A DNA stretch of 20,784 nucleotides, from IMG/VR virus record IMGVR_UViG_3300042316_000349, positions 1 through 20,784 of that record; one strand, given 5' to 3'. Source of the stretch: a virus. Numbering within the stretch: position 1 is the first letter of the stretch; the number at the start of each line of letters is the position of its first letter. A model generated the notes under the pieces. That model was not told the DNA's origin. It did not search any database and saw only the letters and a program-made list of their open reading frames with translations. Made by a program: the position numbers and the translations under genes. Positions 9,061 to 10,536 of this stretch are shown here, one piece after another.

Positions 9061-9283
9061 ACCCCCGTAGGGGGGCGGCAGGACAAGGGCAGCTTCGCTG
9101 CCTGCGTCAGTTGCGTGGGGCGACCGGTCGTAGCCGGTGCCCCGCGCCCAGCGAGGCGCTCAAGCGCCGAGCCAGTAAAGGGTTCGTGCGAAGCCTGCCT
9201 CACCCCATAAGTCGGGTGCGCGTTCAGCGCACTCCGACAAGACGGACGCGAAGCGTCCGGCTCCCCGCCCGCGAAGCGGGCGG
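9061..9283. repeat. Hairpin cluster 1 with GCGAAGC mini-hairpin caps
   Basis: Consecutive stem-loops fill this stretch: GGCAGC/GCTGCC with TTC loop (9088-9102), GGGGC..ACCGG/CCGGT.GCCCC (9117-9143), GGCGC/GCGCC (9155-9168), GTCGG.GTGCGC/GCGCAC.CCGAC (9211-9238), CGGACGC/GCGTCCG with GAA loop (9243-9259) and CCGCCCGC/GCGGGCGG with GAA loop (9265-9283). Three are capped by GCGAAGC on one strand while their outer arms differ. None is followed by a clear T-run on the minus strand, so they do not look like terminators of the known genes. Confidence 0.75.
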
Positions 9284-9382
9284 AAAAATTTTGTTTCACA
9301 CCCTGATATATCAAGGGCTCGACCTCTGCGGTCGGTTTCTCCTCATTGCCTAGCGGTGTTCTGGGGCTCATCGATGACGTAG

Positions 9383-9425
9383 AAAAGCCCTCGCCAATGC
9401 TCGGGGGGGAACACTGACGAGGGCT
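9383..9425 (-). terminator. Intrinsic terminator after the 9444-9809 gene
   Basis: On the minus strand AGCCCTCG (9425-9418) pairs with CGAGGGCT (9393-9386) in an 8-bp stem around a 24-base loop, followed by TTTTCTAC. It lies about 20 bases past the stop of the 9444 gene and is oriented for it. The long loop makes it less typical than the other two terminators. Confidence 0.7.
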
Positions 9426-9443
9426 GGGGGTGGGGGGGTCTGT

Positions 9444-9809
9444 TTAGATCTGGTGGGCTTCCTCGAGTTCTGCCTGCTCGGCTCGTTTCTCCTCGACTGT
9501 TCCCCACTCGATGAAGGCATGCGCCAGTTCTCGGGCGTTTATCTCATTGATGGCTGAGTTCAGTAGATCGCTCGTGAGGCTTGCCGATGGCACTCCATCA
9601 GTGAGGACGATCTCCTCAATTACTCGTGCGAGCATCTCGGCGACCACTTCCACTATTTCCGAATCGTCTCGATCTTGCATTACTGCAATTTCTACAAGGT
9701 CATCGAGTTGCTCTTGGATGAATTGGGTCGTTCCCTCGTCGTTGGTGATCCAGATATTGGCAAGCCAAGTTTCGAAATTTGTCCAGCCGTTGTATTCGTT
9801 GCGGTTCAT
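9444..9809 (-). CDS. Small acidic phage protein with NGWTNFETW motif
   Basis: This 121-aa acidic protein starts at ATG 9809, preceded by AAAGGAAAA at about eight bases. The ATG overlaps the TGA of the upstream gene as ATGA. The frame is open further upstream, but that extension overlaps the neighbour and has no site of its own. The N-terminus MNRNEYNGWTNFETWLANIW carries the NGW.N.ETW..xLW signature of a family of small proteins common in phages and plasmids, which I recall as a domain of unknown function. The rest is predicted helical and Glu-rich (VEEKRAEQAELEEAHQI at the end). The gene shares the ATGA style and TCGA richness of the AAA+/VWA operon upstream and is followed by a terminator. 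Function unknown. Confidence 0.85.
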   Translation of the reverse strand: MNRNEYNGWTNFETWLANIWITNDEGTTQFIQEQLDDLVEIAVMQDRDDSEIVEVVAEMLARVIEEIVLTDGVPSASLTSDLLNSAINEINARELAHAFIEWGTVEEKRAEQAELEEAHQI

Positions 9810-10015
9810 TGTGCGTTTTCCTTTAGTTCTTGGGCTTCTTTGGCTTCGTACCATGCTTGGCTCACTCCACTGATCAGCGAGTAGTCCACCACTTGCAACT
9901 CTCGCCACAATTCCCCGAGGGCTTCGAGGTCGAGTTGATCGGTTTCCATATAGTGCTCGATCTGATTTATTAGTGATCGGGTGCTATGCATTACGTTTCG
10001 TAATCCTTCATACAT
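9806..10015 (-). CDS. Small helical protein, unknown function
   Basis: This 69-aa protein starts at ATG 10015, chosen because AAAGGAG lies seven bases upstream; an in-frame ATG 11 codons earlier has no such site. It reads MYEGLRNVMHSTRSLINQIE and continues as charged helices with Trp residues (LGELWRELQ, SQAWYEAKEAQ). The stop overlaps the next gene as ATGA, so the two are coupled. A candidate promoter sits at 10050-10077. No family is recognised. Its partner's domain suggests an accessory role in the infected cell rather than in the virion. Confidence 0.8.
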   Translation of the reverse strand: MYEGLRNVMHSTRSLINQIEHYMETDQLDLEALGELWRELQVVDYSLISGVSQAWYEAKEAQELKENAQ

Positions 10016-10049
10016 GGCGTTTTCTCCTTTGTTTGGTTGTTGTGCCATG

Positions 10050-10077
10050 CGTATAACAATAGGGAATTTTTGGGCAA
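10050..10077 (-). promoter_or_regulatory. Candidate promoter for the 10015-9444 gene pair
   Basis: The minus strand has TTGCCC (10077-10072), a 16-base spacer and TATACG (10055-10050), about 35 bases before the start at 10015. Directly upstream are three A-tracts of 9, 9 and 6 bases (T-runs at 10098-10106, 10110-10118 and 10125-10130 on the plus strand), spaced near a helical turn, which could act as an UP element or bend the DNA. Confidence 0.4.
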
Positions 10078-10230
10078 ATTGTAAGTACCTTTTGGGGTTT
10101 TTTTTTGGATTTTTTTTTCAGCTCTTTTTTCCTCGATGTCTGGGCGGTGTTGGTATGGCTTGACCATTTCGGCGGGCTCTGATCGCTTCCTATCGTCTGC
10201 TTTTTTTGGGAATCGCCCCGTTTTTCTTAT

Positions 10231-10536
10231 ATGCGGTTGCGAAGCAACCTTTTGGGTTTGCCACTCGTCACCCAGATGAGGGCGTCAGCCCGATACCGGG
10301 TGACGAACAGTTGGCTGGACTGTTCGCACATCTCCCTAGTTCGGCCTCACAAGCGAAGCGCAGTGCAGCCGAACTAGGTACTCAACCTATCGATCGAGCT
10401 GAGTGAGCGTCAGCGAACGGTCGCTCGATCGTCTGACTAGAGAATGAGCCAAGCGAAGCGAAGCGTAGCCTGGCCTCATTCTCGGGAACTCTCCTGTCGA
10501 TCGAACTCCTGCGAACCTTCCTCTGGGCATGGTTCG
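10231..10536. repeat. Hairpin cluster 2, tandem stem-loops
   Basis: The stem-loops in order are: GGTTGC/GCAACC with GAA loop (10235-10249); CGTCACCC/GGGTGACG (10266-10305) enclosing GGGC/GCCC; GAACAG/CTGTTC (10305-10325); an 11-bp perfect stem CCTAGTTCGGC/GCCGAACTAGG (10335-10378) whose loop contains AAGCGAAGCG; CGATCGAG/CTCGATCG (10391-10431); GAGAATGAG.CCA/TGG.CTCATTCTC (10440-10483) whose loop contains AGCGAAGCGAAGCG; and CGAACC/GGTTCG (10512-10536). The GCGAAGC word is shared with cluster 1 while the arms are unrelated. Confidence 0.75.

Follow-up and report, generated by a model that had tools for sequence, protein, structure and literature searches.

Two intergenic blocks of stem-loops, several with the heptamer GCGAAGC at the tip, flank a pair of small genes in an uncultivated phage genome, and the question raised by this locus is what so many hairpins do there. 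The original prediction was that they are a selected structure, perhaps a replication or packaging element or a family of tiny mobile hairpins. The window, i.e. the whole stretch of DNA that was analyzed, was a single IMG/VR record of 20,784 bases. All genes recognized in it were on the minus strand, and they encoded a terminase (phrog_38), a portal (phrog_104), a single-strand annealing protein, a RecE-like exonuclease, an AAA protein, and a WhiB-type regulator. WhiB genes serve to assign uncultivated freshwater phages of this kind to actinobacterial hosts (PMC6802176, PMC10914622), and the virus of the window is an uncultivated actinobacterial virus. No close terminase was found among deposited phages, the best matches (approximately 25%) being with Streptomyces phages, and neither tRNA nor tmRNA was detected.

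Along the minus strand, the gene 10645–10917 was followed by a U-tract terminator (10620–10597), cluster 2, the genes 10048–9806 and 9809–9444, a second terminator (9425–9386), cluster 1, a spacer of approximately 250 nt, a structured RNA element that we call E (8795–8626), small ORFs, and the terminase (Table 1). A four-base overlap joined the start of the DUF7249 gene to the stop of the small gene before it, and translational coupling of the two is likely. A minus-strand ORF spanning cluster 1 (8919–9371) had no family match and was taken as spurious.

Table 1. Positions of the hairpin clusters, neighboring genes, and RNA features in the window
Feature	Position	Strand	Remarks
Terminase large subunit (phrog_38)	5677–7650	-	First large gene downstream of E
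Structured RNA element E	8626–8795	-	One copy; pseudoknot domain and hairpins; upstream of terminase
Spacer between cluster 1 and E	8800–9060	-	Promoter-like stretch CTATAAGCGTCGCTGTATACATG at about 8890–8925
Hairpin cluster 1	9062–9283		Seven stem-loops (9062–9075, 9088–9102, 9113–9147, 9155–9168, 9211–9238, 9243–9259, 9265–9283); three extended GCGAAGC-capped hairpins
Terminator-like hairpin	9386–9425	-	AGCCCTCG/CGAGGGCT, then TTTTC; just past gene 9444–9809; read from the sequence
Gene with DUF7249 domain	9444–9809	-	PF23907, E-value 7.6e-11; start is an internal ATG
Small cassette gene	9806–10048	-	No family; 80 aa, or shorter if the start is the ATG at 10015
Hairpin cluster 2	10235–10536		Seven stem-loops (10235–10249, 10266–10305, 10304–10326, 10335–10378, 10391–10431, 10440–10483, 10512–10536); one extended GCGAAGC-capped hairpin
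Terminator-like hairpin with T-run	10597–10620	-	After gene 10645–10917
Small gene upstream of cluster 2	10645–10917	-	No reliable family

We counted 14 stem-loops in the two blocks, for which "about thirteen" had been a fair estimate. Both clusters were wholly intergenic, each lying past a minus-strand terminator-like hairpin, and both were GC-richer than their surroundings, as had been noted (72% in cluster 1 and 58% in cluster 2, compared with 47% in the window). When the real sequence was compared with dinucleotide shuffles, the DNA folding z-scores were -6.2 for cluster 1 and -5.5 for cluster 2. The RNA folding z-scores were -5.9 (minus strand) and -6.0 (plus strand) for cluster 1, and -5.6 and -4.9 on the two strands of cluster 2, and no shuffle matched the fold of either cluster. 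Folding of both strands against shuffled sequence, which had been proposed as a check, thus placed both clusters far beyond chance (z of approximately -5 to -6). Together with the strong hairpins found in the same intergenic slots of relatives (see below), this result supported the prediction of a selected structure. Since both strands folded equally well, folding does not separate a role at the DNA level from one at the RNA level, and leaves an RNA-level role unproved.

The heptamer GCGAAGC forms an unusually stable mini-hairpin in DNA. It occurred nine times in the window against 2.7 expected (none of 100 shuffles reached nine), and eight of the nine copies were inside the clusters. Four copies (9092, 9248, 9271, and 10239) capped extended perfect stems with 4–6 extra pairs each, for which the binomial P was approximately 1e-7 to 3e-8; the other copies had no extra pairs and lay in loops or elsewhere. 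The arms that had been pointed out as different yet complementary belong to different hairpins of one genome rather than to homologues, and are therefore not evidence of compensatory evolution. In relatives, GCGAAGC was almost absent and was no preferred tip, so that a role specific to this heptamer was not supported. The core of the hairpin at 9243–9259 was found in only one other contig, where it formed part of a longer GC hairpin with T-rich sequence behind it; this recurrence, again as a stable hairpin ahead of T-rich sequence, suggests that a stable tip was used convergently. A search of a limited literature collection for GCGAAGC hairpins in phages gave nothing relevant.

The stability of the mini-hairpin, the location of E and the clusters close upstream of the terminase, and an enrichment of contig ends nearby would be consistent with a replication origin or a packaging (pac/cos) site that uses extruded DNA hairpins, and the tip heptamer is common to the clusters and the origins of single-strand phages. 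Here, however, it accompanies double-stranded tailed-phage genes in several non-identical copies, and is unconserved in relatives. Conservation would be expected of an origin or a pac site, but the arrays were not conserved, and the GC skew, examined because a change in it had been suggested as a sign of an origin, had no clear turn at the clusters. The contig ends were spread over 500 bp, full-length contigs of relatives (38–40 kb) ended at unrelated places, and E was also found beside a different type of terminase and in contigs where no terminase was matched nearby. A replication or packaging element was thus not borne out, and we regard it as very unlikely. The short stems and three-base purine loops also recall the single-strand promoters of the phage N4 virion polymerase. 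Phages of the N4 type have genomes of 70 kb and a giant polymerase gene, whereas near-complete contigs of the relatives were mostly 36–41 kb; moreover, the spacing and orientation of the hairpins were irregular, the motif was nearly absent in relatives, and no conserved purine-triloop hairpins were found at promoters there. Promoters of this kind are highly unlikely at this locus.

The reading that we prefer, with a probability of roughly 0.5, is that the arrays insulate or terminate short, independently transcribed gene units of the minus strand. Cluster 2 would close the unit of gene 10645–10917 behind its terminator, and cluster 1 would close the unit of the DUF7249 gene pair behind its own; beyond cluster 1 come the gene for the structured RNA E and, after it, the terminase operon. 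The hairpins would most likely act in RNA, as redundant transcription stops and as blocks of 3′-ends, by which the small cassettes and the E gene would be kept insulated from one another. They would be retained for their foldability rather than for their sequence, with fast gain and loss, and in this phage they would have been expanded into arrays. The hairpin arrays are an extreme form of something ordinary. As with intrinsic (rho-independent) terminators and terminator-flanked phage "moron" cassettes, stable GC-rich intergenic hairpins bracket small unrelated genes, and they are positioned after the stop codon of the upstream gene. The difference is that most of the cluster hairpins lacked a T-run, and that there were seven in each block, not one.

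Only the flanking hairpins at 9386–9425 and 10597–10620 had a GC-rich stem with a direct T-run, and the cluster hairpins did not. The former had a local energy of -29.9 and was followed by TTTCTACG; the latter was matched to isrJ in an Rfam search, a match that we attribute to the terminator itself. No family was found for the clusters in Rfam, either at the gathering threshold or with E-values up to 10. At 101 loci, the 8-base stretch after such hairpins contained 1.96 T compared with a background of 1.83, i.e. without T-enrichment. The lack of T-runs after most cluster hairpins is the main weakness of the insulation reading. The additional hairpins beyond the two U-tract terminators may do the same job; because these two terminators would suffice, the array is an unexplained excess.

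The window's own clusters had no close relative. The closest terminase in IMG/VR (78%) did not lead to one, nor did an IMG/VR search with the hairpin core; a search there with the DUF7249 protein gave five distant matches and no close relative, and blastn against INPHARED found no relative of the clusters. The array of the window was carried by no relative (best E-value of 0.48 among the fetched loci, and none in phage records). In contrast to the arrays themselves, the slots they occupy recurred. A profile of fold excess across the loci that carry E, obtained by composition regression, was concentrated between positions -750 and -450 and between -250 and -200, counted from E, with none downstream. 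In loci L027, L030, L062, L084, and L092, strong hairpins preceded a small unrelated gene, behind which came a further strong hairpin and then E, and the hairpins of relatives in these slots were unrelated in sequence or rapidly turned over. Compensatory change between relatives, which had been named as the evidence to look for, was found for one terminator-like stem, in the sister group of L027, L092, L030, L059, L084, and L097, where the stem of approximately 20 bp after the small gene had compensatory changes. Between this stem and E, nearly invariant DNA of approximately 65 nt resembled a promoter region. A near-invariant GGGGGGGTAATACCCGTCCTGTATATGTGTGGATTTGTTACATTTTCTGTGG approximately 60–135 nt upstream of E in the same group is likely to be the phage promoter of the E gene. 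The resemblance of the promoter-like stretch of the window to a box that is strongly conserved in one sister group was not significant (P = 0.09).

Loci L001 and L140 had GC-rich arrays in the same slot, with one hairpin in common (CCGCGCATACTCGT..CGCTTCGCTC..) and the others different; the common hairpin was absent from every other IMG/VR contig. Such rapid turnover would also be expected if the clusters were functionless accumulations of tiny palindromes, mobile or self-perfecting (REP-like, MITE-like, or made by template switching), in tolerated intergenic slots, which is the main rival to insulation. This explanation would suit the four hairpins that have nothing but the GCGAAGC tip in common on unrelated perfect arms in both orientations. 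It would also suit the contig ends, which hypervariable or hard-to-assemble DNA would attract: 19 of 67 whole contigs ended within 500 bp upstream of E, and three of 67 within 500 bp downstream. Mobile copies should resemble each other, but the arms did not, and no transposase was noticed; the L001/L140 hairpin was in no further contig, the 9243–9259 core recurred in just one, and multiple copies of one palindrome were not found within or among genomes. REP/BIME elements and small palindromic repeats with GAA-type tips are likewise clustered, short, and intergenic with a common tip, whereas the arms here were not repeated, the hairpins were not dispersed in the genome or its relatives, and no REP-type transposase was noticed. 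We consider mobile or self-perfecting palindromes somewhat unlikely. Contig ends were about five times denser at 0–500 bp upstream of E than further off in the 67 whole contigs, which suggests that this stretch is hypervariable or hard to assemble; because the ends were scattered and near-complete contigs ended elsewhere, we read them as assembly trouble and not as genome ends.

E was detected by blast of the region upstream of the terminase as a conserved noncoding stretch, with a length of approximately 170 nt in the window and up to approximately 240 nt in relatives. At least 120 IMG/VR stretches with E were found by a degenerate pattern, and in most of them E lay 0.2–2.9 kb upstream of the terminase. 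Apart from the window itself, 44 of the 80 terminase relatives had E according to a covariance model, the E-values of which are rough by design, and had it at the expected place and on the strand of the terminase. Conversely, among the matches listed for the RNA pattern alone, 97 loci had a phrog_38-type terminase downstream on the same strand, at 223–2888 nt (median 846). In 38 diverse sequences, aligned independently of the model, 89.6% of the cells of the structure including the pseudoknot could pair; 264 cells were changed on both sides, compared with 90.6 after shuffling and 18–49 in slid controls, and the covariation score was 0.456 against 0.133. In 95 distinct sequences, the alignment of which was fitted to the model, there were 596 compensatory cells against 180.6 in shuffled alignments, with a covariation score of 0.465 against 0.114; slid controls over both alignments gave 18–102. 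The fold of E was not unusually stable, and E was therefore seen through covariation and not through energy. Its peripheral helices were replaced or extended in some lineages.

E had no match by sequence or structure in Rfam 15, at the gathering threshold or with E-values up to 10, and BLAST did not find it in 50,697 deposited phage records. The pattern gave only three matches in approximately 85,000 bacterial and archaeal genomes (one per species), which were unsupported by the covariance model and were taken as chance. A search of the same limited literature collection for the E RNA gave nothing relevant. E very probably represents a phage RNA family not described before, and it is a more interesting discovery than the adjoining hairpin arrays.

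With E as a bona fide structured RNA and GC-rich, hairpin-dense DNA directly 5′ of it in the window, L001, and L140, cluster 1 could belong, as a variable 5′ portion, to a single large ornate RNA of which E is the conserved 3′ domain, as in GOLLD, a type known from lake samples and phages (PMC12286853). Like the large phage-linked GOLLD and ROOL RNAs, E is structured and phage-borne, has a variable 5′ neighborhood, and comes from aquatic sources; in contrast to them, its core is only approximately 170–240 nt, and it is unmatched in Rfam, GOLLD included. A spacer parts cluster 1 from E, two genes part cluster 2 from cluster 1, the L027/L030 group has its near-invariant promoter-like stretch between the last hairpin and E, and many relatives have only one hairpin there. 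A composite RNA of this kind is unlikely.

The proximity of E to the terminase suggests a possible role at the start of expression of the head and packaging genes. E resembles the phi29 packaging RNA in being a small structured phage RNA gene usually near packaging genes; however, its fold is different, it was found beside phrog_38, beside another large terminase, and also without a nearby terminase match. Taken further, E may be an undescribed, pseudoknotted RNA family of approximately 170–240 nt with exchangeable peripheral helices, distributed in several distinct uncultivated actinophage lineages and followed by two or more large terminases that look unrelated, that works as an RNA, either when the phage turns to expressing its head and packaging genes or in packaging itself, with the arrays only insulating its gene; we hold this full account tentatively, at slightly less than even odds. 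Since E keeps its place upstream of different terminases, a phage RNA function would be directly testable, given a cultured host–phage pair with E.

Five loci (L082, L087, L093, L113, and L156) had a different large terminase-like ATPase 2.7–3.1 kb after E (GGAAGGGKS and DEATQF, read from the sequence), and most of them also had a different portal-like protein; E is therefore not tied to one packaging module. In L131, L136, and L196, divergent copies of E were present with no terminase in the downstream stretch read, and next to these copies was an opposite-strand methyltransferase-like gene in L136 and L196 and another gene in L131. Besides a full copy of E, the contig L155 had a second and divergent match to the E model (13000–13098, minus strand). 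In the L061 group, the palindrome GGGAGATATATACATAAATGTGTATCTC was conserved just 5′ of E (approximately 30–60 nt upstream), and similar GTGTAC palindromes were just 5′ of E in other lineages. Downstream of E, many loci had another 3′ hairpin, the TCCC loop of which was conserved (GTCATCCCGAC, GCTTCCCAGC, and GTCTCCCGAC), past which was a possible promoter box (TRTAGCAC, TACAnT..CAACATG) ahead of the terminase operon.
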